From: Chitinophaga sp. 180180018-3 | GTDB taxonomy: Bacteria > Bacteroidota > Bacteroidia > Chitinophagales > Chitinophagaceae | Length of the DNA: 64,000 nucleotides | Direction of reading: 5' to 3' | NCBI RefSeq assembly: GCF_037893185.1 | Contig: NZ_CP140772.1 | Location: forward strand, 1,612,001 to 1,676,000 | In this document: positions 5,461 through 49,785 of the stretch, piece after piece | Layout of the letters: every line of letters begins with the position of its first letter | How positions within the stretch are numbered: position 1 is the stretch's first letter | Translations under genes and position numbers: made by a program | The notes under the pieces: model-generated | What the model was told of the DNA's origin: nothing | The model's database searches: none | The model's input: the letters and a program-made list of their open reading frames with translations, nothing else

Positions 5461-5511
5461 GCATTAAAGAGAAGAGCTTGGCGGTTAATGCTAAGCTCTT
5501 CTCTTTAATGC
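5461..5511. repeat. Palindromic gene-end element, copy 1
   Basis: A 19-bp perfect inverted repeat (5461-5479 and 5493-5511) around a 13-base loop; pairing continues into the loop as AGCTTGGC/GCTAAGCT with one wobble. It sits between convergent genes, and the right arm covers the stop codon (5505-5507) of the minus-strand PLP-enzyme gene. The core AAGAGCTT.GCG...GC.TAAGCTCTT is shared with the element at 46661-46768. It probably ends transcription from both sides. Confidence 0.85.
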
Positions 5512-6542
5512 TCAATTTCTTTCGATAACGCAATCAGGTCTTCCGGTAAATGCAGGGCTGAAACCACCGCTCTGTTCACCGGCTCACTATGCGGATGTGG
5601 GTAGGGAAAACTGGAAATGATAATATCCCGGTTCATTAACTGGTGTACCAGCTGTGCTCCCTGTTGCAGTATGAACATCGGGAGTGAGTGGGGATTGTGT
5701 ACCGTTGTACCGGAAGTGAGTTGTTGCAGGGTAGAGATGTTGTGTTGGAGTGCAATGCGCATTTTTGCCGCAATACTGGCGGCATTCAGCCAGGTAAAAG
5801 CATTGGCGGGCGCCATGGGAGTACTGCCGGCAAAGAGTGGTGTTCTTTTCAATCCGCTGATATCAGCAGCGTGACCCGCTACTACTCCGCCTTGTACGCT
5901 GTAAGCCTTTGCCAGCGATGCCGTAAGGAGGTAGCGTACCTGCGGAAGCTGTGGCAGGAAATGAATACTGCCTTGACCATCGGGGCCCAGGATGCCGATG
6001 CCGTGCGAATCATCAGCAATAACCAGTACCTTACGCTGCAGTACTTTCAGCCAGTCGAATGAGTGGATGGTGCTGGTCAGCGGATTCACGGTATCTGAAA
6101 CAACTGCAAAGTGATGATCCGGATGTGCATTTATTTTTTCGATGGTCTGTGCAATCCATTCTTCCCGGCTGATGTTTTGCCGGGCTGGTTGATGGTGCCA
6201 GAGCGAGGGATGCGCTCCGGGTGCGTACAGCAACTGGCCGCAGGTGGAGCCGTATTGGGCAGCTGCCTGAGATGCCAGAAAACCGGATGAAAATACAGCA
6301 GCCGATTGCTGGCCCAGATGCGTACAAAGCGCATGCTCTGCTTCTTCATACAACGTCAGTCGCAGGTTACCTGCCCTCGATGAAGGAAACATCGTTCCAT
6401 ATCTGGCAATACCCTCTGCCAGCAAGCGTTGAAAAGCCTCTTGCTGATGCAGGCCCAGGTAGGCAAATCCGGAAAAGAACAGGCAGGTACGCCCGTCTAT
6501 TTCCGCTGTCCGGCCTGGTGTATAAGCTGTATGCTGGATCAT
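5505..6542 (-). CDS. BioF/KBL-like PLP-dependent acyltransferase or aminotransferase (class I/II fold)
   Basis: A 345-residue protein with the alpha-oxoamine synthase look: an N-terminal FSGFAYLGL turn, ADDSHGIGILG (Asp178/His180 region, PLP pyridine contacts) and the lysine motif LLTASLAKAYSVQGG with Lys212 as the likely Schiff-base residue. BioF makes 8-amino-7-oxononanoate from pimeloyl-thioester and alanine in biotin synthesis; a bioA gene lies in this window near 50 kb but is not linked. At 345 residues it is shorter than usual BioF (about 385), so another acyl-CoA or amino-acid substrate is possible. It is the last gene of a tight minus-strand cluster, 6 bp after the small lipoprotein gene. 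The stop codon lies in a palindromic element. Confidence 0.7.
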   Translation of the reverse strand: MIQHTAYTPGRTAEIDGRTCLFFSGFAYLGLHQQEAFQRLLAEGIARYGTMFPSSRAGNLRLTLYEEAEHALCTHLGQQSAAVFSSGFLASQAAAQYGSTCGQLLYAPGAHPSLWHHQPARQNISREEWIAQTIEKINAHPDHHFAVVSDTVNPLTSTIHSFDWLKVLQRKVLVIADDSHGIGILGPDGQGSIHFLPQLPQVRYLLTASLAKAYSVQGGVVAGHAADISGLKRTPLFAGSTPMAPANAFTWLNAASIAAKMRIALQHNISTLQQLTSGTTVHNPHSLPMFILQQGAQLVHQLMNRDIIISSFPYPHPHSEPVNRAVVSALHLPEDLIALSKEIEH

Positions 6543-6548
6543 CCCGGA

Positions 6549-6971
6549 TCAGTCTTTTTTAGTACATAAGATAAACTGGAAATCAGTGGAAGTAACTTTC
6601 ATATCGAAATGATCTTCATCCAGCCGGGTGATAGTAACCAGGTTTTCTACCTTGCGGTCGCCGTTCTTTGCGGTAACCGAGATCATTTCTCCGTTGCTGA
6701 GCAGGAAGTATTTTCCGGTATCAGATTTTCCTGCGATAGTAGCAATAAACATATTATTATCGAGGAACTGATAATAGGCATCACTGTAATAGCCTTTCTT
6801 CAGATCTTCTGCCTGAATATACTGGGTATTGCTGATAGGCGCATCAGGCGGGATCTTAACATCGTAAACCCTCCACTTTTTATTCATCAGCAGTTCATTA
6901 TTCTTTTTACTCCGGCAAGCGGTCGTCAGGGATAGTGCGGCGAGTACAATTGATATGGTGCGTATTTTCAT
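6549..6971 (-). CDS. Small lipoprotein of unknown function
   Basis: A 140-residue protein with a clear lipoprotein signal (SLTTACRSKK, Cys19). The mature part is a small beta-rich domain: KKWRVYDVKIP, a tyrosine-rich stretch (AYYQFLDNNMFIATIAG), then alternating strands ending DFQFILC. This shape resembles the lipocalin-like lipoproteins of Bacteroidota that sense or bind small molecules, but no specific family is certain. It lies 3 bp after the DinB-like gene and 6 bp before the BioF-like gene, so it is almost certainly co-transcribed with both. Confidence 0.7.
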   Translation of the reverse strand: MKIRTISIVLAALSLTTACRSKKNNELLMNKKWRVYDVKIPPDAPISNTQYIQAEDLKKGYYSDAYYQFLDNNMFIATIAGKSDTGKYFLLSNGEMISVTAKNGDRKVENLVTITRLDEDHFDMKVTSTDFQFILCTKKD

Positions 6972-6974
6972 GAA

Positions 6975-7505
6975 TTACTTTTTCTCAGTTTTAGCCTGAT
7001 TGAAAGCAGCAGAGCCTCCTTTGGGGATCGACAGGCTTTCCCATTGATCTTTAAGAAGCATTTTGCCAATATATACGATCTGTCCTACATGATAGGGAAC
7101 ATGCGCCAGTTGCCGGTTAATGGCATCTATCACTATATGCGGCTCGCTGCGGATATACACTGTTTTTTCAATGTCTTCCTCACGCAGGTTGCGGATAGCG
7201 TTCATCATGCAGTCCCAGCCTGCATTCCAGTGTTCGAGCAGTTGTTCCTTACTGGCAGTATGGTCTTCAAATTCCTGATCACGATGGCGATTGGGTTTTT
7301 CACCATCGCTCGTGAGGAAGTCGGTCCAGCGCGATAACATATTACCATGCAGGTGCTGAATGATCAGCGCAATGCTGTTGGGCTCACCTTCCGGTTGCCA
7401 ATGCAGCTGTTCTGTGCTGAGGCGCTCTATGGTTTTAAGGCCCAGCTGCCGGTGCATTTCAAATCGTTGCAATACACTTTGCAGATATATACTTTGGATA
7501 GACAT
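6975..7505 (-). CDS. DinB/DUF1572-family protein
   Basis: A 176-residue all-helical protein. The order of motifs IALIIQHLHGNMLSRW (about residues 45-60), LEHWNAGWDCMMNAI, and INRQLAHVPYHVGQIVYIGK (about 130-149) matches the DinB superfamily branch known as DUF1572, with three spaced histidines (His51 or 53, His135, His138/139 region) that bind a divalent metal. Members are linked to thiol-dependent transferases, but the function of this branch is not established. It sits 18 bp after the gamma-glutamyltransferase gene, which suggests a shared transcript; a glutathione- or thiol-related role is an inference only. Confidence 0.8.
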   Translation of the reverse strand: MSIQSIYLQSVLQRFEMHRQLGLKTIERLSTEQLHWQPEGEPNSIALIIQHLHGNMLSRWTDFLTSDGEKPNRHRDQEFEDHTASKEQLLEHWNAGWDCMMNAIRNLREEDIEKTVYIRSEPHIVIDAINRQLAHVPYHVGQIVYIGKMLLKDQWESLSIPKGGSAAFNQAKTEKK

Positions 7506-7523
7506 AACGATGTTTTATTTACT

Positions 7524-9230: not shown

Positions 9231-9341
9231 GAAAATCGTGTTTGAGGCTAAATTAAGACTTGCGGGGGACTGTAGGAAATTTAATTAGCCTGGAAAACAA
9301 TCCCTATCTTACAGTTGTATTAATTAACAGCAAGGCTTTAT

Positions 9342-11864
9342 ATGCGCAGATATATCTTAATGGCAGCCATACTGCTTGGTTTTCTCAGATCAGGCGCTCA
9401 GGCACCTACGCCCGACCAGTTCCTGGGTTATCCGTTGGGTACCAGGTTTACTCCCCATTACCGTGTAATTGATTATTTCCGGCAGGTAGCCGCTTCTGTA
9501 AAGAACGTGAAGCTGGAGCAATATGGCACTACCTACGAAGGCCGGCCACTAATGATGGCTATCGTAGCGTCGCCGGAAAATGCGGCCCGGCTGGACGAAA
9601 TACGTCAACATAGCCTGGATATGTCTAACGCCCGGGGGGCCGGTACCGCAAATCAGCCGGTAATTGTATGGCTCAGCTACAATGTGCACGGCAACGAATC
9701 GGTTTCCACAGAAGCAGCGATGAAAACGCTGTATGAACTGGTTAATAACGGAAACGCACAAACGCAGCAATGGCTGAAGAATACCGTTGTCATCATAGAC
9801 CCTTGCCTGAACCCGGATGGAAGGGAGCGCTACGTGAATTTTTACAATACCACCCGCGGTGCAAAACCGAATGTAAACCGCTATGCCCGCGAACATAATG
9901 AGCCATGGCCGGGAGGAAGATCGAATCATTACTATTTTGATCTGAACCGTGATTGGGCGTGGCAAACGCAAAAAGAATCGCAGCAGCGTGTAGCAAAGTA
10001 TAACCAGTGGATGCCGCAGCTGCATGTAGATTTTCACGAACAGGAAATTGAAGCGCCTTATTATTTTGCTCCCGCTGCAGAGCCGTTTCATGATGCCATT
10101 ACTCCCTGGCAGCGACAGCTTCAGCTGATGATTGGTAAAAACAATGCAAAATATTTCGACGAACAGGGTTGGCTTTACTTCACCAAAGAGCGCTTCGATC
10201 TTTTCTATCCCAGCTATGGCGACACGTACCCCATGTACAATGGAGCTATTGGTATGACCTATGAGCAGGGTGGTGGCGGCCGCGCAGGCCTGGCCGTAGT
10301 GAAGAAAGATGGGGACACGCTTTCACTGGCCGATCGTATCGCACATCATTTCACGACGGGTATGTCGACTATAGAAGTAGCCGCTCAAAATGCAGATAAG
10401 ATCATTACCGAATATGCACAGTATTTCGAATCTGCCCGGAAATCGCCGCAGGGCGGATATAAAGCTTATGTAGTGAAAGCCGGCGGCAATACGGAAAAAC
10501 TGAATACCCTCGCAGAGCTGCTGCGCAAAAACAACATCGCATTCGGCTATGGCGCTACCATAGGCGCCGCCACCGGGTTCAATTATTTTACAGGAAAAAA
10601 TGAAAATTTCGGCATTGATAAGGAAGACCTGGTGATCAACGCTTTTCAGCCTCATTCCAATATGCTCAGGGTACTGTTTGAACCGGTGTCGCATCTGACA
10701 GACTCCGTAACCTACGACATTACCGCATGGGCGATTCCTTATGCCTACGGGCTCACTTCCTATGCACTCAAACAACCATTAACACCTGCGGCCGATGCTC
10801 CTGTGATAAAGAACAATGCTCCGCTTTCGGCGCAGCGTCCTTACGCCTATCTGGCGCAATGGAACAGTCTGCGGGATGTGAAATTCTTATCCGCATTGTT
10901 GGAAAGTGATATCAAAGTGCGGTTTACTGAAACGCCTTTCACTGTGGGTGGAAAAGATTTTCCTGCCGGCACATTGGTCGTAACCCGCTCGGGTAATAAC
11001 TCTTCTCAGTTCGATCAGTTTATCACATCGCAGGCCGACCGGTTCAAAATCTCCCTCGACGCAGTATCCAGCGGGTTTGTTGACAAAGGGATGGATTTCG
11101 GCTCCGACAAGATCAGGTTCATTAAGAAACCAAACGTGGTCGTGTTGGGTGGCGATGGTGTTTCATCGCTGGGAATGGGCGAGGTATGGCATTTCTTCGA
11201 GCAGCAGCTCGATTTTCCGGTGACAGTAGTGGATGTAAAAGACATAGGTGAAATCAATTGGGATGGAACGGATGTGCTGATTATGCCTGACGGGGATTAT
11301 AAATTCCTCACCGATAAAGCGTCGGCCGACAAACTGAAGGAATGGGTAAGCAATGGCGGAAGACTGATTGCGCTGGAAAGTGCCGGCGTGCAACTGGCGG
11401 CAACAGACTGGGGAATCAAACTGAAGAAGAACGCCGACAATGATAAGGATGTAAAAGAGAAAGGCAACGAAAAAACATACGATGTGCTGAGAACCTACGC
11501 CAACAGGGAGCGGGAAAGCATCCGGCAGTTTGTACCCGGGGCCATCTATAAGGTGCAGATGGACACTACTCATCCACTGGCATTCGGCTATCCGGCTTAT
11601 TATTACACGTTGAAACAGGATACCCGCTTATACGAGTTTATTGAGAACGGCGGCTGGAATGTAGGCGTGCTGAAAAAAGACAGTTACCTGAGCGGATTTG
11701 TAGGTGCCGACACCCGTCAGCAGATGAAAGATGGGCTGGTATTCGGCGTAAAGGAAATGGGGAACGGACAGGTGATCGTGATGGCGGATAATCCATTATT
11801 CAGAAGCTTCTGGGAGAATGGGAAATTGTTGTTTAGTAATGCGGTGTTCCTGGTAGGACAATAG
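9342..11864 (+). CDS. M14-family zinc carboxypeptidase, secreted
   Basis: An 840-residue secreted metallopeptidase. A signal peptide (residues 1-20, ending SGAQA) is followed by the M14 catalytic domain: Zn ligands HGNE (His116, Glu119) and the third His in LHVDFHEQ (probably His232), the substrate-carboxylate loop NPDGRERY, NRDW, and the catalytic Glu in MTYEQGGGGR. The second half (about 400-840) contains a Rossmann-like section VVVLGGDGVSSLGMGEVWHFFE and LIMPDGDYKFL that resembles the amidotransferase-like C-terminal domain seen in long Bacteroidota M14 proteins. It probably trims peptides in the periplasm or outside the cell. It is monocistronic, with a hairpin after the stop. Confidence 0.93.
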   Translation: MRRYILMAAILLGFLRSGAQAPTPDQFLGYPLGTRFTPHYRVIDYFRQVAASVKNVKLEQYGTTYEGRPLMMAIVASPENAARLDEIRQHSLDMSNARGAGTANQPVIVWLSYNVHGNESVSTEAAMKTLYELVNNGNAQTQQWLKNTVVIIDPCLNPDGRERYVNFYNTTRGAKPNVNRYAREHNEPWPGGRSNHYYFDLNRDWAWQTQKESQQRVAKYNQWMPQLHVDFHEQEIEAPYYFAPAAEPFHDAITPWQRQLQLMIGKNNAKYFDEQGWLYFTKERFDLFYPSYGDTYPMYNGAIGMTYEQGGGGRAGLAVVKKDGDTLSLADRIAHHFTTGMSTIEVAAQNADKIITEYAQYFESARKSPQGGYKAYVVKAGGNTEKLNTLAELLRKNNIAFGYGATIGAATGFNYFTGKNENFGIDKEDLVINAFQPHSNMLRVLFEPVSHLTDSVTYDITAWAIPYAYGLTSYALKQPLTPAADAPVIKNNAPLSAQRPYAYLAQWNSLRDVKFLSALLESDIKVRFTETPFTVGGKDFPAGTLVVTRSGNNSSQFDQFITSQADRFKISLDAVSSGFVDKGMDFGSDKIRFIKKPNVVVLGGDGVSSLGMGEVWHFFEQQLDFPVTVVDVKDIGEINWDGTDVLIMPDGDYKFLTDKASADKLKEWVSNGGRLIALESAGVQLAATDWGIKLKKNADNDKDVKEKGNEKTYDVLRTYANRERESIRQFVPGAIYKVQMDTTHPLAFGYPAYYYTLKQDTRLYEFIENGGWNVGVLKKDSYLSGFVGADTRQQMKDGLVFGVKEMGNGQVIVMADNPLFRSFWENGKLLFSNAVFLVGQ

Positions 11865-11874: not shown

Positions 11875-11938
11875 TCTTTAGTAAAATGCAGCGGAGATCA
11901 CGTTATATTATTAATACAATGTGATCTCCGCCGCATTT
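11875..11938. terminator. Bidirectional terminator, repeat family TCTTTAGTAA/GCGGAGATCAC, copy 1
   Basis: A 19-bp inverted repeat (11883-11901 with 11920-11938, one mismatch) lies between the convergent peptidase and redoxin genes. The outer arms AAAATGC/GCATTTT give a U-run in both directions. The left flank TCTTTAGTAA and the stem GCGGAGATCAC recur at 34949-35013, so this is a repeated sequence and not only a chance hairpin. Confidence 0.8.
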
Positions 11939-11947
11939 TATCAAAGG

Positions 11948-12556
11948 CTAAAACCTTTTGATATTGCACCCCAAACTATGTGATGCATTCACGCTAACAG
12001 CTTTACCAGCCAGCATTTCGTTGATGGCATTGTGGAGATATTTGTTTTTAACAGCTTCGGCGTTTCCCGGGCTGTCGTCAATTCCTCCTTTGTATACGAG
12101 CCGGCTGTTTTTATCAAACAGGAAGCATTCCGGTGTGTGGTTGGCATCGAAAGCATCGGCCAACAGGGCGTTCCGGTCGAGTATATAATGCCACGTGAAT
12201 TGTATGGACGCCGCATATTGTTTCATGGCGGCAAAGGATTCACTTCCGTTGCGGGCTGCCTCATTGGAATTTACCATTACCACCCCGATATTGTTTTTAT
12301 GTGCGTACGCGCAGATGTTATGTAGCCTGTCGTGGTTACGTAACATGTATGGACATTGGTTGCTGGCGAAAATTACGAGCAAACCATTGCCCCCTTTGGC
12401 AGCGCCCAGTGAAATATCTTTCCCGGAGATATCCATACAGGCAATTTCCGATTTAGGCAAAAGCGCCCCTGGCTCCAATGGCATTTCCCGGTCAGGTGGT
12501 TGAAAGGAGGACAGCAAAACAGCACAACAGGATAAATAAAAAGCGGACTTAATCAT
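11948..12556 (-). CDS. Redoxin (AhpC/TSA-like) protein with a single active-site cysteine
   Basis: A 202-residue protein with an N-terminal hydrophobic signal (ending near LLSSFQP) and a thioredoxin-fold domain: LLPKSEIACMDISGK, then LLVIFASNQCPYMLRNHDR, VVMVNSNEA, and the cis-Pro loop HTPECFLFDKNSRLVYKG. In related extracytoplasmic redoxins the motif reads C-N-x-C-P-Y; here the first Cys is Ser (Ser65) and only Cys68 is left, so ordinary disulfide reduction is unlikely. It could act as a one-Cys peroxidase or have lost redox function. A start 14 codons upstream is possible, but ATG 12556 begins a normal signal peptide. Expected in the periplasm. Confidence 0.8.
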   Translation of the reverse strand: MIKSAFYLSCCAVLLSSFQPPDREMPLEPGALLPKSEIACMDISGKDISLGAAKGGNGLLVIFASNQCPYMLRNHDRLHNICAYAHKNNIGVVMVNSNEAARNGSESFAAMKQYAASIQFTWHYILDRNALLADAFDANHTPECFLFDKNSRLVYKGGIDDSPGNAEAVKNKYLHNAINEMLAGKAVSVNASHSLGCNIKRF

Positions 12557-12701
12557 TACTAGTGGTTTACAGGTCCAGGTTAAATATAGTAAATGCAACA
12601 GTAAATGTGATACAACTTCATTATTCTATCGAAATATAATAAAAAATATTATAATTAATAATTGTCAGATATATTACGGAAGATATGTGCCAGCGCAGGT
12701 A

Positions 12702-13661
12702 TCATGCCGGTACCTGGTGCTTTTTCTCGTCCTGTCGCGCATCGCTGAGCGTTCTGATGCTGGCATTCAATTCAAACCCTACCAGCAGGATGAGAGAGTT
12801 GAAAAAGATCCATAACATGAGTACGAGGATCGTACCAATAGATCCATAGATCTTGTTATAGTTGCCAAAGTTATTTACGAACCAGGAGAAGCCCAGGGTA
12901 ACGAGTATCATGAAAGTAGTAGCCACGGTAGCGCCGGCAGTAATAAACTTCCACTTTCTGGTAGTGGCGGCGCCTATACGATACAGTACGGCATTGATGG
13001 AGTAGAAGAGTAGTATAATCAGTACCCATCTTGCTATATCAATCACATGCCTGAGCGGAATGCTTTCAATACCCAGGAGGCTGAATACCCAGCGTAGTGT
13101 GGCACCCTGCACAATCACCAGCGCCACGCAAATAAGCAGGATCAGCACCACAATGGCCGTGAGCTGCAGCGCAATGAGCCGGTTTTGCCACCATTTTCGT
13201 TTCCGGAAGCCCGCACCCTGTATTTTACTGAAAGAGCGGAGTATGCCCATTACACCATTGGAGGAATAGAAGTAGCCCATTACGAAGGCAATCGACAACA
13301 GGCCGTTCCGGTGTGTGTAGAGGAAATCATGTATCATTCCTCTTACGATCATGTAAGTATTGTAATTGGGCGTAAGGTCCTGCGCAAGGTCGTACAGGGT
13401 GGATTCGATGTTGGTAACAGGGATGTATGGCACCAATGTGAACAGGAAGATAAAAAACGGCGGAATCGCCAGCAGGAAGTTAAAAGAGATGGCCCTGGCA
13501 CGGTCGCCCAGGCCTCTGTTTTTGACCTCCTGCATAAAATGTTTCAATACATCATATAAGGGCAAGCCTTCAAACCCGGGTAGTATCAGGGTTTTAGTGC
13601 GTTCCACCAGGCGGCGCCAGGGGCGGGAATGCAGTATAATGTTCTCGGGTTTGAAGGGCAT
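12702..13661 (-). CDS. YihY/BrkB-family integral membrane protein
   Basis: A 319-residue inner-membrane protein with about six hydrophobic segments. Family signs are RARAISFNFLLAIPPFFIFLF near the first membrane segment, GLLSIAFVMGYFYSSNGV, and ATVATTFMILVTLGFSWFVNNFGNYNKIYGSIG, which match the YihY (formerly called ribonuclease BN) family. Its function is not established; the old RNase BN label is known to be wrong. The longest frame starts with TTG at 13667, but ATG 13661 (MPFKPENIIL) is the better start. It lies on the same strand as mltG, with two strong palindromes in the 93-bp gap. Confidence 0.9.
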   Translation of the reverse strand: MPFKPENIILHSRPWRRLVERTKTLILPGFEGLPLYDVLKHFMQEVKNRGLGDRARAISFNFLLAIPPFFIFLFTLVPYIPVTNIESTLYDLAQDLTPNYNTYMIVRGMIHDFLYTHRNGLLSIAFVMGYFYSSNGVMGILRSFSKIQGAGFRKRKWWQNRLIALQLTAIVVLILLICVALVIVQGATLRWVFSLLGIESIPLRHVIDIARWVLIILLFYSINAVLYRIGAATTRKWKFITAGATVATTFMILVTLGFSWFVNNFGNYNKIYGSIGTILVLMLWIFFNSLILLVGFELNASIRTLSDARQDEKKHQVPA

Positions 13662-13675
13662 TAGCAATTAGCTTT

Positions 13676-13705
13676 TAGCCTTTAGCTGCTAGCAGCTAAA
13701 GGCTA
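13676..13705. repeat. Perfect 30-bp palindrome without loop
   Basis: TAGCCTTTAGCTGCT (13676-13690) is followed directly by its exact reverse complement (13691-13705). The surrounding sequence repeats the word TTAGC several times. It lies between brkB and mltG on the minus strand and could form a cruciform or RNA hairpin. Confidence 0.85.
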
Positions 13706-13735: not shown

Positions 13736-13763
13736 GGCTACTGGCAGCTACCAGCTAGTAGCC
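13736..13763. repeat. Imperfect palindrome over the mltG stop codon
   Basis: Outer arms GGCTACT/AGTAGCC enclose a second stem CTGG/CCAG around CAGCTA. The mltG stop codon (13755-13757) lies within it. With the palindrome at 13676-13705 it makes a double hairpin after mltG; bases on the brkB side are A/T-rich. It uses the same TAGC words as the neighbouring palindrome and so may be a related element. Confidence 0.65.
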
Positions 13764-14804
13764 TCTTTTATTCAGCTCCGCCTGGTACAATCTTGCGTTC
13801 ACCAGGTGGTCTGCATAGGTGGCTGCAAAAGCATGATAGCCAGAGAAATCGGATCTCGCACAAAAATACAGGTAATCTGTTTCCGGTGTGTTCAACACGG
13901 CATTTAATGTTTTCTCAGAAGGAGTACAAATGGGGCCCGGTGGTAATCCTTCATAGCGGTAGGTATTGTAGGGAGAATCATACTGCGTATGAGTTTCCCT
14001 GATGCGTTTCAGGCCGAAGTCCTGTAAAGCAAATTTAACTGTTGGATCAGCCTGAAGGCGCATGCCTTTGCGGTAGCGGTTCAGATACACACTGGCGATC
14101 AGCGGTTTCTCATCATTTTTATTGGTTTCTTCCTCTACAATGGAACCAAGAATGGTTACTTCGTTGAGTGAAAGTCCGAGTTTGGCCGCTTTTTCTTTCT
14201 TTTCCGGCGTCCAGAAGGCTTCTCTGGCTTTTTCGAGTTTCTTGAAAACCGCTTCAGCTCCGGTATTCCAGTAGAATTCGTAGGTATCAGGTACTACGAC
14301 GCACATGACAGTGTTGGTATCCAGCCCGAACTGGCGGAGGTAAACAGGGTCGGTCATCAGCGAACGAAGCACGCCGGAATCGGCTTCCAGGTTATTGGAG
14401 ATCTTCCTGACAAAATCATCTTTTGTGCGGATCTTATTGATGACCAGATCAACGGGCGATTGTTTACCTGAACGGAGCATGCGGGCAATATCAAAATTGC
14501 TCATGCCTCTCGTGATTTTATACCGGCCTGCCTTTACCCGGGAGGGGTAGTCGAGTTGCCTGGCTACCCAGTTGAAACTATTCCGGTTACGGACGATCCC
14601 CTGTTCTTCCAGTCCATCGAGCACATTGTTATAGGTGCTGTTGGTGCGTACATAGAAATACTTGCTGTCGCCGAAAGCCTTGGTATTAGGACCAAATACG
14701 CGATAGGAAATATAGACCAGTACCCCGGCGAGCAAGCAGCCGGCAATAACCAGTCCCCGTCTTAACCAGACTGTTTTTCTGCTGGAAGATTTTTTCTTAG
14801 CCAT
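13755..14804 (-). CDS. mltG: Endolytic peptidoglycan transglycosylase MltG (YceG-like)
   Basis: A 349-residue inner-membrane lytic transglycosylase that cuts nascent glycan strands and so sets their length. A basic N-terminus (MAKKKSSSRK) and one membrane span (about 16-34) anchor it; the YceG domain follows. The catalytic motif SIVEEETNK has Glu224 where E. coli MltG has Glu218, and the substrate loop reads YDSPYNTYRYEGLPPGPICTPS in shape (about 278-300), as in the family. Length is normal. It is the last gene of the long minus-strand run, separated from secG by a terminator and about 137 bp. Confidence 0.95.
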   Translation of the reverse strand: MAKKKSSSRKTVWLRRGLVIAGCLLAGVLVYISYRVFGPNTKAFGDSKYFYVRTNSTYNNVLDGLEEQGIVRNRNSFNWVARQLDYPSRVKAGRYKITRGMSNFDIARMLRSGKQSPVDLVINKIRTKDDFVRKISNNLEADSGVLRSLMTDPVYLRQFGLDTNTVMCVVVPDTYEFYWNTGAEAVFKKLEKAREAFWTPEKKEKAAKLGLSLNEVTILGSIVEEETNKNDEKPLIASVYLNRYRKGMRLQADPTVKFALQDFGLKRIRETHTQYDSPYNTYRYEGLPPGPICTPSEKTLNAVLNTPETDYLYFCARSDFSGYHAFAATYADHLVNARLYQAELNKRGY

Positions 14805-19994: not shown

Positions 19995-20097
19995 GAATTG
20001 GGAATGAAGAATTAAGAATGAAAGCGAAGAACTTAGCGATTGACAATACTATCCGCTAAGTTCTTCGCTTTCATTCTTAATTCTTCATTCCCAATTC
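19995..20097. repeat. Palindromic gene-end element, copy 2 (44-bp perfect arms)
   Basis: Arms 19995-20038 and 20054-20097 are exact reverse complements over 44 bp, with a 15-base loop. The inner core reads GCGAAGAACTTAGCG; the outer arm is built of GAATTGGGAATGAAGAATTAAG. It lies between the conserved hypothetical gene (stop at 20098-20100) and miaB, both on the minus strand. It is expected to end or strongly weaken transcription into miaB, or to protect the 3' end of the upstream RNA. Confidence 0.92.
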
Positions 20098-20601
20098 TCA
20101 ATTCGTAATTGCCAGTTTTCTGGCAATCCACGAATCTTTCAAGGGCACCAGCCAGTTCTTATCCAGATCCTGTTTGGTTAGTACGGTGTTGTTCAGATAG
20201 AGGGTATTTTCGTTGATATACCCTTTTTCAAGCGCGTAGGCCACCTGCGCCATGGGCAGGAGTTGTACTTTATCGTTGACGAGGAAGCCCAGCAGGAGGC
20301 GATCGAAAAGATTGACCTCGTACTGTTTTTCCAGGCTCTTGATGATACGAACGGAACTATCTGTGCTGCAACCACTTACGGTTGTTTGTGTTTCGTCGGC
20401 CAGCAGTACTATTACCTGGTTCAACACTACACCGCCCCATCCTTTCACAGGATCGCCATGGGCATTCCACTGGGCAGTGAACTGATGAAGCTGCTCGTTG
20501 ATCTCCAATATCTCCTGTTCATTAAATGGTCTGTTGCTCTGGTAGATCCAAACCCTGGAGGAGGGAGAAAATCCTTCAGGGAAGATATTGCTGCTATTCA
20601 T
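20098..20601 (-). CDS. Conserved hypothetical protein (sometimes mislabelled ABC transporter ATPase)
   Basis: A 167-residue protein beginning MNSSNIFPEGFSPSSRVWIY. It contains RPFNEQEILEINEQLHQFTAQW, GWGGVVLNQVIVLLADE, and a cysteine-containing SGCSTDSSVRIIKSLEKQY segment, and ends with LVPLKDSWIARKL. This matches a Bacteroidota family that carries the name ABC transporter ATPase in many records, yet no Walker A, Walker B or LSGGQ motif is present, so that name has no support here. It appears cytoplasmic. A -7 box (20606-20613) touches the start codon and suggests a leaderless transcript. It follows the Fe-S protein gene by 23 bp. Confidence 0.8.
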   Translation of the reverse strand: MNSSNIFPEGFSPSSRVWIYQSNRPFNEQEILEINEQLHQFTAQWNAHGDPVKGWGGVVLNQVIVLLADETQTTVSGCSTDSSVRIIKSLEKQYEVNLFDRLLLGFLVNDKVQLLPMAQVAYALEKGYINENTLYLNNTVLTKQDLDKNWLVPLKDSWIARKLAITN

Positions 20602-24335: not shown

Positions 24336-24457
24336 AATTAAGAATAGAGAATGAGGAAATTAAGAATGATGAGCGAAGACCAAAGCGATTGACCACGTTT
24401 GTAATCGCTTTGGTCTTCGCTCATCATTCTTAATTTCCTCATTCTCTATTCTTAATT
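24336..24457. repeat. Palindromic gene-end element, copy 3 (55-bp perfect arms)
   Basis: Arms 24336-24390 and 24403-24457 are exact reverse complements over 55 bp with a 12-base loop, the longest flawless pair in the window. The inner core reads GCGAAGACCAAAGCGATT. The phosphohexomutase stop codon (24452-24454) lies inside the right arm. The outer arms contain two GAATTAAG/AAATTAAG words. Confidence 0.93.
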
Positions 24458-26179
24458 AGTCAGTTTCAGATCCTGAATAATACCATTTATTTTCTGATCC
24501 AGTTGGGCTGTTACTTTATCAAAGTCGGCCGCACTTGCCAGTGGAGCATTGACGCTGAAGTAAAATTTGATTTTAGGTTCTGTTCCTGACGGACGGGCGG
24601 ATATTTTGCTGCCGTCGGCGAGCAGAAACTGCAGTACATTGGATTTGGGAAGATCCAATGGCTTGATATCACCGGTTTTAATATCCCTGATCTGCTGCAG
24701 TTGATAGTCATACAGGGTTACTACCGGGGAGCCATTGATGGCAGCCGGCGGGTTTTCCCTGTAACCACGCATCATTTCGGCAATTTCTTCTGCTCCTCTC
24801 ATACCTTTTTTGGTAATAGAGATCAGATGTTCTTTATAATAACCGTAGCGGACATAAATATTAATCAGTTCCTCGAAGAGGGATTTTCCCTGGCTGCGGG
24901 CATATGCTGCCATCTCACAGATCATGGCTACAGAAGCCACTGCATCCTTGTCGCGTACATTCTGGCCAATCATATAACCGTACGACTCTTCACCGCCACA
25001 GATAAAGTTTTCCTGTGCTTCTTTGCGACGGATCATATCGGCAATCCATTTAAAGCCGGTCAGTACATTATAGCAATTGATATTGTTTTTTGCAGCAAAT
25101 ACATCGATGAGATCGGATGTTACCACCGTTTTCGCGATATAATCGTTGGGTTTAGCCAGCCCTTTACGTTTGCGGGCTTCAACGATATAGTTGAACAGCA
25201 GTACGCCGGTCTGGTTGCCATTGAGGAGTATCCATTCGCCTTTCAGATCCTTTACGGCAATGCCTACACGATCAGCGTCAGGGTCCGTTCCGAGCAGGAT
25301 GTCTGCATCCAGTTCTTTGGCTTTTTTCAGGCCCAGGCTCATCGCTTCGGATTCTTCCGGGTTGGGATATACCACGGTCGGGAAGTTGCCATCCGGTGTA
25401 GCCTGCTCCTGTACAATATTAACATTGGTGAACCCATAACGCTCCAGTACCTGGGGCACCTGGGTAATACCGGTACCGTGGATTGGGGTGTATACTATTT
25501 TAAGGTCGTGTTGCTGTTTATTGATCTCAGGGTTGATAGACAGGCTCACCAGCTCTTTTCTGTAAGCCTCATCCACCTCCTCACCTATGATAGTGATATT
25601 GGCCTCGCCTCCGGTCCATTTTACATCATCCGGAGAAGCAATGCTCTCTACTTCGTGGATCACGTTACTGTCGTGCGGCGGAACCAGTTGGGCGCCATCG
25701 TTCCAGTAAGCTTTATAACCGTTGTACTCCCGGGGGTTATGGGAGGCAGTAAGCACTACTCCGCCATGGCATTGAAGGTGACGGATGGTGAAAGATAACT
25801 CCGGGGTTGGACGGAGGCTTTCAAAGAGAAATACTTTGATACCATTGGCCGCAAATACATTGGCTACTGTTTCGGCGAAAAAGCGTGCATTATTGCGGCT
25901 GTCGTGCGCAATGGCTACTTTGATTTCACCGGAAAAGCTCTTTTTGAGGTAGTTGGCAAAGCCCTGGGTAGCCATACCTATGGTATATTTATTCATGCGG
26001 TTGGTACCCACGCCCATGATACCTCTCAGGCCTCCGGTACCGAATTCGAGGTTACGATAAAAAGCATCGGTGAGCTCATCGGAGTTGCTTTCCTGCATTT
26101 TCCGGATAGTGGCGATGGTTTCCGGGTCGAAATTACCATTGAGCCACTGAGATACTTTGTTTTGAATATTAATATCCAT
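24452..26179 (-). CDS. Phosphoglucomutase/phosphomannomutase (alpha-D-phosphohexomutase)
   Basis: A 575-residue enzyme that interconverts hexose 1- and 6-phosphates. All four domain signatures are visible: the phosphoserine loop VLTASHNPREYNGYK, the Mg loop GTDPDADRVGIA, the sugar loop CGGEESYGYM, and the phosphate-binding RPSGTEPKIKFYF. Length and sequence are of the PgcA/PGM2-like phospho-sugar mutases. The frame opens at 26203, but ATG 26179 (MDINIQNKVSQW) matches the family start. It is divergent from pcm. It would supply glucose-1-phosphate or mannose-1-phosphate for envelope glycan synthesis. Confidence 0.95.
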   Translation of the reverse strand: MDINIQNKVSQWLNGNFDPETIATIRKMQESNSDELTDAFYRNLEFGTGGLRGIMGVGTNRMNKYTIGMATQGFANYLKKSFSGEIKVAIAHDSRNNARFFAETVANVFAANGIKVFLFESLRPTPELSFTIRHLQCHGGVVLTASHNPREYNGYKAYWNDGAQLVPPHDSNVIHEVESIASPDDVKWTGGEANITIIGEEVDEAYRKELVSLSINPEINKQQHDLKIVYTPIHGTGITQVPQVLERYGFTNVNIVQEQATPDGNFPTVVYPNPEESEAMSLGLKKAKELDADILLGTDPDADRVGIAVKDLKGEWILLNGNQTGVLLFNYIVEARKRKGLAKPNDYIAKTVVTSDLIDVFAAKNNINCYNVLTGFKWIADMIRRKEAQENFICGGEESYGYMIGQNVRDKDAVASVAMICEMAAYARSQGKSLFEELINIYVRYGYYKEHLISITKKGMRGAEEIAEMMRGYRENPPAAINGSPVVTLYDYQLQQIRDIKTGDIKPLDLPKSNVLQFLLADGSKISARPSGTEPKIKFYFSVNAPLASAADFDKVTAQLDQKINGIIQDLKLTN

Positions 26180-26290
26180 GGTACTTATTTTGTAAGCCGT
26201 CAATCATAAATGGATTGTAAAGTAAAAATAAAAAAATGAATGTCCGAAATTACAGCCCCCAAAAAGAGATGGAAAATCGATGGTATTGGT

Positions 26291-33034: not shown

Positions 33035-33108
33035 GGTGACTGAAGGGTCTCGAACCCTCGACCCTCAGAACCACAATCTGATGCTCTAACCAACTGAGCT
33101 ACAGTCAC
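33035..33108 (-). tRNA. tRNA-His(GTG), copy 1
   Basis: A 74-base cloverleaf: acceptor GTGACTG/CAGTCAC, D stem GCTC/GAGC, anticodon stem TCAGA/TCTGA with loop TTGTGGT (anticodon GTG), T stem GAGGG/CCCTT with loop TTCGAGA. The discriminator base is C and the base before G1 is G, as required for the G-1:C73 pair of tRNA-His. No CCA end is encoded. It is identical to copy 2 and has its own promoter and terminator. Confidence 0.97.
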
Positions 33109-33236: not shown

Positions 33237-33310
33237 GGTGACTGAAGGGTCTCGAACCCTCGACCCTCAGAACCACAATCTGATGCTCTAACCAACTGAG
33301 CTACAGTCAC
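33237..33310 (-). tRNA. tRNA-His(GTG), copy 2
   Basis: Identical over all 74 bases to the copy at 33035-33108, 202 bp away in the same direction. Anticodon GTG, discriminator C, preceding G present. The promoter and terminator are duplicated with it, while the spacer between them has diverged. Confidence 0.97.
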
Positions 33311-39712: not shown

Positions 39713-39768
39713 ATAAAAGAGAAAGACCGAAGCGGATAATATCTATCGCTTCGGTCTTTCTCTTTTAT
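39713..39768. repeat. Palindromic gene-end element, copy 4
   Basis: Arms 39713-39734 and 39747-39768 pair perfectly over 22 bp with a 12-base loop. The core AAAGACCGAAGCGGAT is a variant of the family core. It lies between convergent genes and the outer flanks repeat TAGCTATTAGCT, with weaker pairing. Confidence 0.85.
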
Positions 39769-42354: not shown

Positions 42355-43590
42355 ATGAGTTCAGGACAAAAACGTTTGGTAGTGGCGGGCGGTGGGGCCG
42401 CAGGTTTCTTTTGTGCGGTGAATGCAGCCCGGATGTCGCCCGGGCTGGAAGTGGTACTGCTGGAAAAAACAGGGAAGCTGCTATCCAAGGTGAAGGTAAG
42501 CGGGGGAGGGCGTTGCAACGTTACACACAATGCCCCTGATATTACGTATATGGCTAAACGTTATCCCCGTGGCCAGCACTTTGTAAAGAAAGCTTTCTCC
42601 AGGTTTTTCGTCTCTGATACCATTGCCTGGTTTGCGGAGAGAGGAGTGAAGCTGAAAGCAGAAGACGATGGAAGGATGTTCCCGGTAACGGATAATTCGC
42701 AAACGATCATCGACTGTCTCCTGCGGGAGGCAGATAAGTATGGGGTAAGTATCCGTATGCATACCGAAATAACAGGTTTCGGTAAAGAACCGGATGGCCG
42801 CTGGCGTTTGCAGTTACAGGGAGGGCAGGCAATACCTGCTGATTACCTGTGTATAGCCACCGGAGGTTTTGCGCAGGCAGATAAATTCAACTGGCTGGCA
42901 GCATCGGGGCATACTTTCGCGATGCCCGTTCCGTCGCTCTTCACTTTTAACATGCCAGGTAACCCGGTAACAGCCCTGATGGGCGTAGCTGCCACGGCAC
43001 ATGTGAAAATAGCCGGCACCAAACTACAGGAGCTCGGGCCCTTGCTGATCACGCATTGGGGGATGAGCGGACCGGCAATCCTACGGTTATCGGCCTGGGG
43101 TGCCCGCGAACTGCAACAGCTGCAATACACCTTTACTGCCATTGTTAACTGGCTGCCCGACTATAACGAAAATACGTTACGTGAGCACTGGCAGGATCTC
43201 CGTTTTGAACTGGGCAAACAAAAGCTCTACCATAAAAATCCTTTCGGCCTGCCGCAGCGCCTCTGGCAATTCCTGCTGGAGCAAACCGGTGCCGGAGCCG
43301 AGCTTCGCTGGGCTGATCTCTCCGCCAAAGACCAGAACAGGCTGATGAAGCTCCTCGTAAACATGGAGTTTCCTGTAAAAGGTAAAACCACCTTCAAAGA
43401 AGAATTTGTTACCTGTGGCGGTATCACGCTTAGTGAAATAGACCCGGCCACTATGGAGAGCAAGCTGGTACCTGATCTCTTTTTCGCCGGTGAAATCATG
43501 GACGTAGACGGCATAACAGGAGGGTTTAATTTTCAGCATGCCTGGACGAGTGGATTTGTAGCTGCGCTGAGAATTACGAATATGGAATGA
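42355..43590 (+). CDS. YhiN/HI0933-family flavoprotein (BaiN-like)
   Basis: A 411-residue FAD-dependent oxidoreductase. The Rossmann start RLVVAGGGAAGFFCAVNAAR, then LLEKTGKLLSKVKVSGGGRCNVTH, and a C-terminal GEIMDVDGITGGFNFQHAWTSG-type segment (about 382-402, given in outline) are diagnostic of the HI0933/YhiN family. Members include BaiN, which acts in bile-acid dehydroxylation in gut bacteria, but most are of unknown reaction. It appears cytoplasmic and monocistronic. Its stop codon lies in the left arm of a palindromic element. Confidence 0.92.
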   Translation: MSSGQKRLVVAGGGAAGFFCAVNAARMSPGLEVVLLEKTGKLLSKVKVSGGGRCNVTHNAPDITYMAKRYPRGQHFVKKAFSRFFVSDTIAWFAERGVKLKAEDDGRMFPVTDNSQTIIDCLLREADKYGVSIRMHTEITGFGKEPDGRWRLQLQGGQAIPADYLCIATGGFAQADKFNWLAASGHTFAMPVPSLFTFNMPGNPVTALMGVAATAHVKIAGTKLQELGPLLITHWGMSGPAILRLSAWGARELQQLQYTFTAIVNWLPDYNENTLREHWQDLRFELGKQKLYHKNPFGLPQRLWQFLLEQTGAGAELRWADLSAKDQNRLMKLLVNMEFPVKGKTTFKEEFVTCGGITLSEIDPATMESKLVPDLFFAGEIMDVDGITGGFNFQHAWTSGFVAALRITNME

Positions 43591-43679
43591 AGAATTAAGA
43601 AACAGAGTGAAGACCTTAGCGGATACCACAATACTCGCTAAGGTCTTCGCTCTGTTTCTTAATTCTTCATTCCATATTC
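43578..43679. repeat. Palindromic gene-end element, copy 5 (44-bp arms)
   Basis: Arms 43578-43621 and 43636-43679 pair over 44 bp with one G/T mismatch and a 14-base loop. The core reads GAAGACCTTAGCG; the outer arm contains GGAATGAAGAATTAAG as in copy 2. It covers the flavoprotein stop (43588-43590) and ends 8 bp before the deoxynucleoside kinase stop. Confidence 0.92.
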
Positions 43680-44856: not shown

Positions 44857-44867
44857 GCCATATTCCT

Positions 44868-44920: not shown

Positions 44921-46681
44921 ATGCGTTTCTTTAAAGTATTTTTTGCTTCCCTGCTGGCATTCATCGTGTTTACCCTGCTGTGCGGGGTAGTTTTATTGAT
45001 AATGATCGGGAAGGCCCTTACCGCTGAAAAGGTGACAATATCCCCCAACGGCGTGTTAACCCTCCAAACCGGACAGGCTTACAACGAACAGAAGCTGGTG
45101 AACCCCGTTAACAAATTGATGGGAGGCGAGTCGGCCGAAACCCCGGGTTTATTCCAGGTATTAAGACTGATCGATAAAGCTGCCGGCGACGACAACATTA
45201 AAGGGATCTACCTCAAGGTAGACGGTAACCCCAATGGTTTTGCCACCACAGAAGAGCTGCGTGACGCCCTGCTGCGTTTTCGCAAATCCGGGAAATTTGT
45301 AATTGCCTATGGAGAGGTGATGACACAAAATGCCTACTACCTGGCTTCCGCCGCGGACAAAATTTACCTGAATCCCAAAGGTGGCGTGGATTTTACCGGT
45401 TTTGCCAGTGAACTTCCTTTTGTAAAGGGTACCCTGGAGAAGCTGGAAATCAAACCGGAGATCTTTTACTGCGGTAAATTCAAAAGCGCTACTGAACCAT
45501 TACGGGAAACAAAAATGACGGATGCCAACCGTATACAAACTACCCAGTTCCTCGGTGAACTGTACGGAAATTTCCTTACCGGCATCAGCCAGACCAGGAA
45601 AATTGATACCGCCACTTTACATGGTTACGCCAATGAAAACCTGATACAGGAAGCGGCGGATGCGCTTAAATATAAGCTGGTAGATGGTCTGAAGTATGAT
45701 GATGAGGTGATGTCGGAACTGAAGGGAAAGACAAATACCAAGGAAGATGAGCAACTGAATGCAGTGACCCTCAATAAATACAATAGCGGCACCGACTTGT
45801 CTGATGGCAGTGGAGATGGACGTATCGCCGTTATTTACGCCCAGGGAGATATCGTTGGTGGGCAATCGGACCGGAATAATACCATCGCCAGCGAAGACTA
45901 TCTGCAAACAATCCGTAAGGTGCGTGAAGACAAGCACATTAAAGCCGTGGTATTCCGGGTTAACTCCGGCGGAGGCAGTGCACTGGCGTCTGAGATCATC
46001 TGGAGGGAGTTATCGCTTACGAAGAAAGTGAAACCGGTAGTAGTATCCATGGGCGATTATGCAGCTTCCGGTGGCTACTATATCTCCTGTATGGCCGACA
46101 GCATCTTTGCGGAACCCAATACGCTGACCGGTTCTATCGGTGTTTTCGGAGTGATGTTCAATATGCAGGATTTCTTCAAAAATAAGCTTGGGGTTACCTT
46201 CGACGGGGTAAAAACTGCCCAGTACGCCGATCTGGGCTCTATGGGCCGCCCGCTCACCGATGTTGAGCGGAAATTCATTCAAAATGGGGTCGACAGTACC
46301 TATGCCTCCTTTAAATCGAGGGTAGTGGCTGGTCGTAAGCTGAATCAGGCCGTTGTCGACAGCATCGCCCAGGGCCGTGTCTGGAGCGGGCTGGAAGCCA
46401 AACAGCTGGGCCTGGTAGACCGTATCGGCGGTATTAAAGAGGCACTGGCATCCGCTGCTGCCCTTGCGAAGCTCAAAGAATACCGGTTACGCGAGTACCC
46501 CGAAATAAAAAGCCCGCTCTCCAAACTGATAAAAGGCCTCGGCGCCGATGCCAGCCTGAACATCGTGAAGAAAGAGCTGGGCATCAATTACGAGTTGTAT
46601 CAGCAACTAAAGGAAGTCCAGCAGATGCATGGCTCGATTCAGGCGAGAATGCTGTTTAAAGAATTGGGAATTAAAAATTAA
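44921..46681 (+). CDS. sppA: Signal peptide peptidase SppA, 67-kDa type
   Basis: A 586-residue membrane-anchored serine protease that degrades cleaved signal peptides. One N-terminal span (about 8-30) is followed by two SppA repeats. The Ser/Lys dyad is visible: Lys188 in GKFKSATEPL (E. coli Lys209) and Ser383 in MGDYAASGGYYIS (E. coli Ser409), so the double-domain form is complete. The frame opens 16 codons upstream, but ATG 44921 (MRFFKVFFASL) is the natural start. The stop codon lies within the next palindromic element. Confidence 0.95.
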   Translation: MRFFKVFFASLLAFIVFTLLCGVVLLIMIGKALTAEKVTISPNGVLTLQTGQAYNEQKLVNPVNKLMGGESAETPGLFQVLRLIDKAAGDDNIKGIYLKVDGNPNGFATTEELRDALLRFRKSGKFVIAYGEVMTQNAYYLASAADKIYLNPKGGVDFTGFASELPFVKGTLEKLEIKPEIFYCGKFKSATEPLRETKMTDANRIQTTQFLGELYGNFLTGISQTRKIDTATLHGYANENLIQEAADALKYKLVDGLKYDDEVMSELKGKTNTKEDEQLNAVTLNKYNSGTDLSDGSGDGRIAVIYAQGDIVGGQSDRNNTIASEDYLQTIRKVREDKHIKAVVFRVNSGGGSALASEIIWRELSLTKKVKPVVVSMGDYAASGGYYISCMADSIFAEPNTLTGSIGVFGVMFNMQDFFKNKLGVTFDGVKTAQYADLGSMGRPLTDVERKFIQNGVDSTYASFKSRVVAGRKLNQAVVDSIAQGRVWSGLEAKQLGLVDRIGGIKEALASAAALAKLKEYRLREYPEIKSPLSKLIKGLGADASLNIVKKELGINYELYQQLKEVQQMHGSIQARMLFKELGIKN

Positions 46682-46768
46682 AAGCTAAGAAAGAAGAAAT
46701 AGCAGGAAGAGCTTAGCGGATATCCGCTAAGCTCTTCCTGCTATTTCTTCTTTCTTAATTCCCAATTC
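46661..46768. repeat. Palindromic gene-end element, copy 6 (35-bp arms, no loop)
   Basis: Inner arms 46687-46721 and 46722-46756 are exact reverse complements with no loop. Outside them GAATTGGGAATT (46661-46672) matches AATTCCCAATTC (46757-46768), with 14 extra bases on the left only. The core is GAAGAGCTTAGCGGAT. The left arm holds the last codons and stop of sppA. Confidence 0.92.
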
Positions 46769-46815
46769 TTAATTTTTCTCGTAGTTTTACCGCCGGTTTT
46801 TAAAAAGCAGATCAG

Positions 46816-47925: not shown

Positions 47926-47936
47926 TGCTATTTCGT

Positions 47937-47944
47937 TAGCTTTG
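47937..47944 (+). promoter_or_regulatory. -7 promoter box before the first SRPBCC gene
   Basis: TAGCTTTG, 20 bp before the ATG at 47965; fits TAnnTTTG. It would allow the SRPBCC pair to be expressed separately from the permease. Confidence 0.4.
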
Positions 47945-47964
47945 TGCTAACAAAATCCCTTCAC

Positions 47965-48492: not shown

Positions 48493-48507
48493 TAATATAT
48501 TTTTTCT

Positions 48508-49038: not shown

Positions 49039-49065
49039 TATCTATTTATTTTACCATTGATCCAA

Positions 49066-49073
49066 TAGTTTTG
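49066..49073 (+). promoter_or_regulatory. Candidate -7 promoter box for the DUF2911 gene
   Basis: TAGTTTTG, 75 bp before the ATG at 49149, fits TAnnTTTG. No clear -33 box. Confidence 0.35.
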
Positions 49074-49148
49074 TTTTTGCCCGGTTTTATCGCTTAACTT
49101 GATAATATCAATTACTACTATTCTTTTACACCGGAAAAACTTAAAAAA

Positions 49149-49643
49149 ATGAAACATTTCTTTCTGGCAACCTTATTTCTGGCTTTCAACAGCCTTCTTT
49201 TTGCACAGGAAAAACCACCTAAAAGTCCACATGTTACAGCGGAAGGCAACGGGATCAAAATCGTATACGGACAACCCTCCAAAAGAGGCCGCGTTATATT
49301 TGGCCAGCTGGAGCCCTTTGGCAAGGTTTGGCGCACCGGCGCTGACCAGGCTACTGAGATCACCTTCAGCAAAAATGTTGTTTTTGGTGGTAAACCAGTA
49401 AAAGCAGGTACTTACACCCTGTTCACCATTCCTGATCCCAAAACCTGGACCGTTATCCTGAATGGAAAGCTGGGCCAATGGGGTGCTTACGACTATGAGA
49501 AGAACAAAGGGGAAGATGTACTGGCTGTTAAAGTAAAACGTGAAGCATTAACTACTCCTGTAGAGAAACTTACTTTCACAGTACCAGCCAATGCAGTAGT
49601 GTTTGAGTGGGATGATACGAGGGTAACGATTCCCGTGAAGTAA
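49149..49643 (+). CDS. DUF2911-family secreted protein
   Basis: A 164-residue protein with a signal peptide (ending FNSLLFAQ). The motif order KIVYGQPSKRGRVIFG, LEPFGKVWRTGADQATEI, VKAGTYTLFTIPDPKTW and VILNGKLGQWGAYDY is that of DUF2911, a small beta-sandwich family common in Bacteroidota. Its function is unknown. Length is usual for a single-domain member. The stop codon is the first base of the left arm of a palindromic element. Confidence 0.88.
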   Translation: MKHFFLATLFLAFNSLLFAQEKPPKSPHVTAEGNGIKIVYGQPSKRGRVIFGQLEPFGKVWRTGADQATEITFSKNVVFGGKPVKAGTYTLFTIPDPKTWTVILNGKLGQWGAYDYEKNKGEDVLAVKVKREALTTPVEKLTFTVPANAVVFEWDDTRVTIPVK

Positions 49644-49785
49644 GAAAGAATTACGAATTAAGAATTACGAATTACGGATCAAAGCGAAGACTTTAGCGAA
49701 TGATAATGATATTTTGTCATTTGCTAAAGTCTTCGCTTTGATCCGTAATTCGTAATTCGTAATTCTTAATTCGTAATTCTTTCTT
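49642..49785. repeat. Palindromic gene-end element, copy 7 (62/69-bp arms)
   Basis: Left arm 49642-49703 pairs with right arm 49717-49785 except for one C/T mismatch; the right arm has one extra CGTAATT heptamer (three copies against two). The core is GCGAAGACTTTAGCGAAT. The left arm includes the DUF2911 stop; the right arm encodes the last residues of BioA (about ERITN) and its stop at 49766-49768. Confidence 0.92.

Follow-up and report, generated by a model that had tools for sequence, protein, structure and literature searches.

Seven long inverted repeats mark the ends of genes in the DNA analysed here, a window of 64 kb (positions 1612001-1676000) from the single 8,131,986-base contig of a Chitinophaga genome (8.1 Mb; G000 among the genomes compared below). 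They belong to a repetitive family, they stand in terminator positions, and their two arms change together, both in G000 and in hairpins common to a pair of sister species. We consider it probable, with some reserve, that they are palindromic elements specific to a lineage, that they sit at the gene-end position where a terminator is often found and have displaced terminators there, and that their arms are kept symmetrical.

Palindromes at the ends of genes

All seven inverted repeats were confirmed where a first-pass annotation of the window had placed them. Their hairpin scores (matched pairs, with mismatches penalised) are 22, 45, 55, 22, 39, 36, and 41 for palindromes 1 to 7, in order, and five second-order Markov resamplings of the window contained no hairpin with a score of at least 14. 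Two weaker relatives that use a different word, TTTAG, had been overlooked and close the following list, in which ORF stands for open reading frame.

Palindrome 1, 5461..5511: convergent site; short, arms of about 20-25; encloses the stop of ORF 5505-6542(-).
Palindrome 2, 19995..20097: starts right after the stop of ORF 20098-20601(-); arms of 45, loop of 15; exact core on both strands.
Palindrome 3, 24336..24457: encloses the stop of ORF 24452-26203(-), which encodes a phosphoglucomutase/phosphomannomutase family protein; arms of 55, 100% complementary, loop of 12.
Palindrome 4, 39713..39768: between convergent DcuA/B and MG2-domain genes; arms of 22, loop of 12.
Palindrome 5, 43578..43679: between convergent HI0933-like and deoxynucleoside kinase (dNK) genes; arms of 44; supplies the last codons and the stop of the upstream HI0933-like ORF.
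Palindrome 6, 46661..46768: between co-directional S49 peptidase and ABC-2 genes; inner arms of 36, no loop; incomplete symmetry, as about 14 nt of the left arm are unpaired; supplies the last codons and the stop of the S49 ORF.
Palindrome 7, 49642..49785: between convergent DUF2911 and class-III aminotransferase genes; arms of about 65-70, with a 7-nt bulge.
Extra imperfect copy, 11876..11946: TTTAG words and core GCAGCGGAGAT; between convergent ORFs 9342-11864(+) and 11948-12598(-).
Extra short palindrome TAGCCTTTAGCTGCT, 13676..13705: between ORFs 12702-13667(-) and 13755-14804(-).

The arms had been described as mostly perfect, which suits palindrome 3 but not palindromes 6 and 7, and the repeats as much longer than ordinary terminators, which does not apply to palindromes 1 and 4: both are short and much like ordinary bidirectional terminators, palindrome 4 being close to one in form. 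The claim that every copy lies near a stop codon held throughout. Relative to the ORFs of the window, palindrome edges fall between 21 nt inside and 15 nt past the coding end; the stop codon is inside the palindrome in five copies (stops ending at 5505, 24452, 43590, 46681, and 49766), and at position 49643 the palindrome edge meets a stop. The S49 peptidase ORF ends in ELGIKN (by eye, the spacers of relatives give, e.g., PFKYSF) and the HI0933-like ORF in the palindrome-coded RITNME. These palindrome-coded ends suggest that the palindrome arrived after the gene at those two sites. Tails encoded by a palindrome, such as RITN, close several proteins of the window, but across 558 called genes none of them ranks among the eight most frequent endings (last three residues), so they are no genome-wide sign.

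From the outside in, an arm consists of an array of words with a period of seven (GAATTAA, GAATGAA, GAATTAC), then the core (GCGAAGANNTTAGCG or a variant), followed by a loop mostly of 5-25 nt. The core is GCGAAGA..TTAGCG with its mirror, or a relative of it, and it is enclosed by word arrays that mirror each other; the words have 7 nt, although some relatives use words of 8 or 9 nt. The arms of G000 have a lag-7 match of 0.64, versus 0.22-0.38 at lags 2-6 and 8-12. Period-7 words of relatives include AAAGCAT, AATTACG, and TTAGCTT, whereas those of G030 (GATTTACG) peak at lag 8 (4 hairpins) and those of G039 (GGATTAACA) at lag 9 (2 hairpins). No fixed outer end was seen among the copies of G000. 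In G004 and G027, palindromes of the S49>ABC2 and HI0933|dNK spacers (L092 and L091) have TTGTCTTTCTC at one end and its mirror at the other, which may be a fixed terminal repeat. The idea that the words form a stop cassette, giving stops in all frames, was rejected: stops occur in 2.00 frames in the first 35 nt of the arm and in 2.06 in dinucleotide shuffles (22 copies of G000). Among titles and abstract openings of the open-access literature we found no description of such word palindromes, and six of the words, searched as letters, led to papers that were unrelated by title and abstract opening.

A repetitive family with lineage-specific words

The first-pass annotation had tied its case to an excess of such repeats across the genome, and the excess is there: with at most 2 mismatches, the core GCGAAGRNCTTAGCG has 201+204 matches in G000, against 37+42 for the reversed control. 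We sampled 800 kb as 40 stretches of 20 kb, placed about 100 kb apart in the first quarter of the genome and about 300 kb apart in the rest, and found 17 hairpins with a score of at least 26, which scales to about 170 per genome. The window is richer than this average, with 5 such hairpins in 64 kb. When sample and window are taken together (864 kb) and genes are called by a simple codon-usage script, the 22 long hairpins are distributed as 10 in 77 convergent, 11 in 370 co-directional, and 1 in 70 divergent spacers, and 21 of them have a stop codon between -19 and +23 nt from an edge.

The word arrays of these 864 kb are located at hairpins in 30 of 42 cases. By eye, the remaining 12 comprise 8 that make up four facing pairs over longer loops, 3 in imperfect palindromes, and 1 that is apparently alone; one of the four facing pairs encloses an IVP gene (see below) and one an apparent IS3-type insertion. 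At L066:4268-5851, facing word arms stand 1.5 kb apart and their inner edges resemble IS3-type ends, so this is probably an insertion sequence inside the loop of a palindrome.

The vocabulary differs between lineages. The junction motif GAATTAAGAANNNNNGCGNAGA occurs 60+56 times in G000, 4+6 times in G048, and in none of 58 other congeners (control 0). The words CACGCAAAG are found 53+54 times in G038, 34+38 in G029, 26+22 in G018, 23+23 in G042, 17+17 in G011, and 8+9 in G027; they number 1+2 in G019, the sister of G018, and 0 in G000. In G048 (L280-L289), which has the hairpin nuclease component SbcD, long pure GAATTAA tandem arrays lie beside the core, with at least 10 units in some. Among public genome contigs, all six stretches found with the strict core hairpin come from Chitinophaga records (five from C. 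solisilvae and one from a Chitinophaga metagenome-assembled genome; records of G000 itself were possibly excluded from this search), which agrees with the first guess of Chitinophagaceae. A slightly looser hairpin pattern has 35 copies in G000 and occurs in 3 of 98 other genomes (59 from the genus and 39 from the order), with 6, 1, and 1 copies, all in the same genus; the control gave 0.

The words could be signals acting at the level of DNA, such as uptake sequences, that also serve as terminators where they form inverted pairs at the ends of genes. Inverted uptake sequences do form terminator hairpins in other bacteria (excerpt of PMC2267715), but the junction motif has only some hundred copies, the words occur almost exclusively as inverted pairs, and the vocabulary differs between sister species, all of which make this explanation very unlikely.

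Positions held by terminators in relatives

We compared four of the gene ends (at 39.7, 43.6, 46.7, and 49.7 kb) in a set of 20 syntenic stretches. A hairpin with a score of at least 12 is present between DcuAB and MG2 in 13 of the 15 congeners with both genes (in several, the spacer exceeds 1.3 kb), between S49 and ABC2 in 16 of 20, between DUF2911 and the aminotransferase in 15 of 19, and between HI0933 and dNK in 6 of 18. The S49>ABC2 hairpins score at least 20 in 10 of the 20 congeners and at least 35 in 6, using four vocabularies; away from this site, many of the congener hairpins are A-stem-T terminators. At the syntenic sites, congeners have either ordinary-looking hairpins, often with A and T feet, or long palindromes in the lineage's own words, with a perfectly mirrored arm of up to 83 bp in G039. 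The DUF2911 site, inspected by eye, has word arms enclosing an ordinary-looking terminator in G029, G038, and G042 and an ordinary terminator alone in G044, G045, and G011.

The palindromes share several traits with intrinsic terminators: they lie just past stop codons, give hairpin RNA, and show covariation. Inverted repeats of E. coli are also enriched past stops, mostly as parts of terminators (excerpt of PMC6060812). One may ask whether the palindromes arose from ordinary bidirectional intrinsic terminators by selection and slippage, which lengthened the stems in place with no mobile element involved. They do hold the same position as the canonical terminators of relatives, compensatory changes (see below) are also found in ordinary terminators, and palindromes 1 and 4 resemble long ordinary terminators. 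However, the long copies differ from terminators by arms of about 35-70 bp, by word arrays, and by a U-tract that is usually missing. Their words are common to many gene ends of one genome, are missing in 58 of 59 relatives, and are replaced between species, even at the same site in genomes that are 94% identical. Moreover, one copy (G018 29502) is a clean insertion, and two copies of different outer arms, each perfectly mirrored, have in common the core and the asymmetric loop ATAATTTCAAA (L019 and L020). Lengthening in place is, in our view, rather unlikely.

A role at the boundary of genes is likely because the RNA hairpins are very stable (folds of -34.8 to -94.9 kcal/mol for the seven palindromes, z of -9 to -23) and occupy places at which terminators are frequent in relatives. 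Most long copies are without a U-tract, which casts doubt on ordinary intrinsic termination. To judge from their sequence, the palindromes probably serve as gene-end hairpins, and we infer termination itself. The first-pass suggestion of terminators of an unusual kind finds support in their position but not in the usual signature.

Turnover between sister species

The sister species G018 and G019 have 94.15% identity over 18 kb of the syntenic locus. There are 16 hairpins with a score of at least 26 in 608 kb of G018 and 7 in 618 kb of G019. Among the former, 5 have a G019 counterpart of the same kind, 1 lacks a syntenic place, 8 use words that hardly occur in G019, and 2 carry AAAGC words at places where an ordinary hairpin stands in G019, a difference that may have arisen in either direction. 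To the 8 we added a ninth such palindrome with a score of 17, and left out two palindromes of a young family for which no syntenic place was found (G018 62445 and 93637). The nine are as follows.

G018 29502: clean insertion, with CAAAAA on both sides.
G018 153495: sits in the loop of a terminator whose stem is common to G018 and G019.
G018 46544, 145816, and 435880: the G019 counterpart is an AAAGC palindrome.
G018 126572, 162769, 455878, and 550336: the G019 counterpart is an ordinary hairpin.

In 8 of the 9 cases the G018 palindrome stands at a gene end where G019 has a hairpin, and in 7 that hairpin is lost from G018 (on the G019 side, we identified the hairpins at 46544, 126572, and 550336 by visual inspection of the alignments, and the two at 162769 and 455878 have a score of just 13). 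Judging by their rarity in G019, the nine seem young. One young family has 61 matches at at least 33 places in G018 (40 of 94 candidates scored), 20 of which are at least 100 nt long, whereas it has one weak match in G019, 6 matches in G037, and none in G000. All 6 aligned G018 copies have TTTCTCGC at their left end. As regards features of miniature inverted-repeat transposable elements or insertion sequences, CAAAAA flanks the one clean insertion on both sides, and the other new copies are in a hairpin or replace one. The lineage vocabulary, this amplification, the clean insertion, and the insertion in a terminator loop make a palindromic mobile element adapted to gene ends the best fit among the ideas of the first-pass annotation.

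Other elements show parts of this behaviour. Hairpin elements of sponge mitochondria have the same recurrent invasions, divergent structure and composition, and scattered distribution, but they are mitochondrial and their abstract mentions no tie to terminators (PMC2800124). Group IIC (bacterial C) introns prefer transcription terminators (excerpt of PMC8919778); they differ in that they insert just after the terminator and carry a ribozyme and a reverse transcriptase, neither of which is present in the window copies.

Concerted change of the two arms

In G000 and in the hairpins common to G018 and G019, the arms of a given copy vary together. Among the pairs of forward and reverse junction motifs listed for G000, the 5-nt linker is identical in 28 of 29, with 16 different linkers, whereas shuffling the linkers gives a mean of 2.4 and a maximum of 12 identical pairs. 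Arm identity is 0.954 within and 0.819 between sites for 17 sites chosen by the core alone (those of 30 loci with the core mid-locus on the plus strand, the other 13 not being turned round), and one site reaches only 0.69. In 22 hairpins common to G018 and G019, selected as hairpins of one species or the other, 63 pairs have changed: 23 are double changes that keep Watson-Crick pairing, 0 are double changes left unpaired, 13 are G-U, and 27 are broken. Template switching at quasipalindromes is known to make the arms of inverted repeats more alike (excerpts of PMC8604942 and PMC3820800). It is a mutational process and not an element, and cannot alone disperse copies.

Candidate movers and permissive conditions

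REP and REPIN sequences form many intergenic inverted pairs and lineage-specific families. The palindromes resemble them in both respects: they are intergenic inverted pairs of a short sequence round a short loop, with more than 100 per genome by estimate. They differ from them by the outer word arrays and because in G000 an arm is more like its partner in the copy than like the arms of other copies. The RAYT (TnpA_REP) transposase, which the first-pass annotation had named as a possible companion, did not turn up: Y1_Tnp (PF01797) has no match at E 0.001 in G000, nor in G018, G019, G027, G030, G034, G037, and G054. A Y1_Tnp gene is present in 13 of 60 genomes of the genus, including one in G039, which bears long palindromes. 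Yet, of ten congener Y1_Tnp loci that we examined, 6 are flanked by different repeats (GGGCTGAAGCCCTGGG and similar) and 4 had none that we could see. REPINs mobilised by RAYT are thus an extremely unlikely explanation. At L140 (G039), the Y1_Tnp gene lies between tandem GC-rich hairpin repeats with GGTAG, as in a classical REP array.

Reverse transcriptase has one match in 7 of 9 genomes. It was rejected as a mover, since G030 and G039 have none and both have long palindromes. The reverse transcriptase of G000 (L267 from about 1493; match at 3198553-3199185) is a single chromosomal gene with an open frame of 512 aa.

The intervening sequences (IVS) of 23S rRNA are stem-loop elements as well, and the palindromes could be gene-less forms of elements related to them, whose loop encodes IVP (PF05635, a four-helix bundle) and which IVP would spread. 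The single IVP gene of G000 (L117:1498-1872, about 8116181-8116555 in the genome, between secA and deoC) is enclosed by the word arrays and the core of a palindrome, and G054 has an IVP gene at a seemingly equivalent place (by eye), flanked by its own words. Inverted flanks exceed the 99th percentile of 522 genes of G000 at 26 of 29 IVP loci of the genus (35 matches, 30 loci taken, and L136 left out as too short) and at 17 of the 30 best of the phylum. Heptamers are also repeated in tandem before the ORF of the Coxiella IVS (excerpt of PMC4990558). On the other hand, the IVP locus of G000 is outside the rRNA, nearly all palindromes are without a gene (the seven window copies, with loops of at most about 15 nt, have no IVP gene), and one IVP copy faces about 170 hairpins. 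PF05635 has no match at E 0.001 in G018, where palindromes were amplified, or in G019, which weakens IVP as a mover in trans and makes it more likely a passenger or an occasional helper. Palindromes could instead have captured IVP genes. We regard spread by IVP as unlikely.

SbcD is part of the SbcCD nuclease, which cuts long DNA hairpins. SbcD (TIGR00619) was above the cut-off in none of the 9 genomes first tested, which include G000 and bear long palindromes (G034 has a weak sub-threshold match), whereas 13 of 14 control genomes give a match, 8 of them above the cut-off. Across the genus, 17 of 60 genomes have SbcD above the cut-off. In the syntenic region, hairpins with a score of at least 30 number 0 in 136.5 kb from 13 of these 17 genomes and 24 in 330 kb from genomes without SbcD, where they are spread over 9 of 19. 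This association is a lead and not proof because it is confounded by clade.

Weighing the evidence

Several observations weigh against the reading of the palindromes as elements that displace terminators. Only 3 of the 22 long palindromes have a T run of at least 5 at a foot, compared with 16 of 34 among the shorter hairpins. The four syntenic sites were picked because G000 has palindromes there, and at HI0933|dNK 12 of 18 congeners are without a hairpin that scores at least 12. The count of replacements is based on one species pair, for which loss in G019 instead of gain in G018 may explain the difference: the words CACGCAAAG are common in congeners other than G019, and at G019 315136 the hairpin of G018 looks ordinary and that of G019 is an AAAGC palindrome. 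The possible target duplication (CAAAAA) occurs at one site only, that of G018 29502. The arms of the young G018 family are no more alike within copies than between them (identities of 0.763 and 0.761, 14 copies). The movers that we searched for (Y1_Tnp, reverse transcriptase, and IVP) yielded no mobilising enzyme. Finally, 10 of the 13 SbcD genomes examined form one clade, and G048, which has SbcD, carries the same words as inverted arrays with mismatches and mostly wide loops.

If the palindromes are elements of this kind, we infer that they spread by being copied into or beside existing hairpins. The older hairpin would then turn redundant and be lost, and the long RNA hairpin would form the 3' boundary of the gene from both sides, possibly acting as a terminator. 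Template switching, i.e., DNA synthesis templated by the opposite arm, would keep the arms complementary, and the loss of SbcD, and with it of the hairpin nuclease SbcCD, would perhaps permit long arms. A bolder view, which we put forward tentatively and hold to be doubtful, is that they form a class of their own within selfish or domesticated DNA: palindromes without a transposase that land on terminator hairpins and displace them genome by genome, with both arms rewritten at once in the 7-9-nt words of the lineage. In some loops, IVP genes would be passengers or helpers, and the loss of SbcCD would be the condition that permits the palindromes.

If the palindromes do displace terminators, repetitive palindromes would be replacing the gene-end signals of a bacterial genus between neighbouring genes that remain 94% identical, unlike the usual view of the evolution of terminators. 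The palindromes would offer a natural system for measuring the concerted change of hairpin arms and a testable link to the presence or absence of SbcCD, and they would tie the unexplained IVP genes to a dispersed palindrome outside the rRNA.

Other features of the window

Thresholds of Rfam were reached in the window by two tRNAs alone, with no match to rRNA. The two tRNA genes, at 33035-33108 and 33237-33310 on the minus strand, have equal scores and lie about 130 bp apart.

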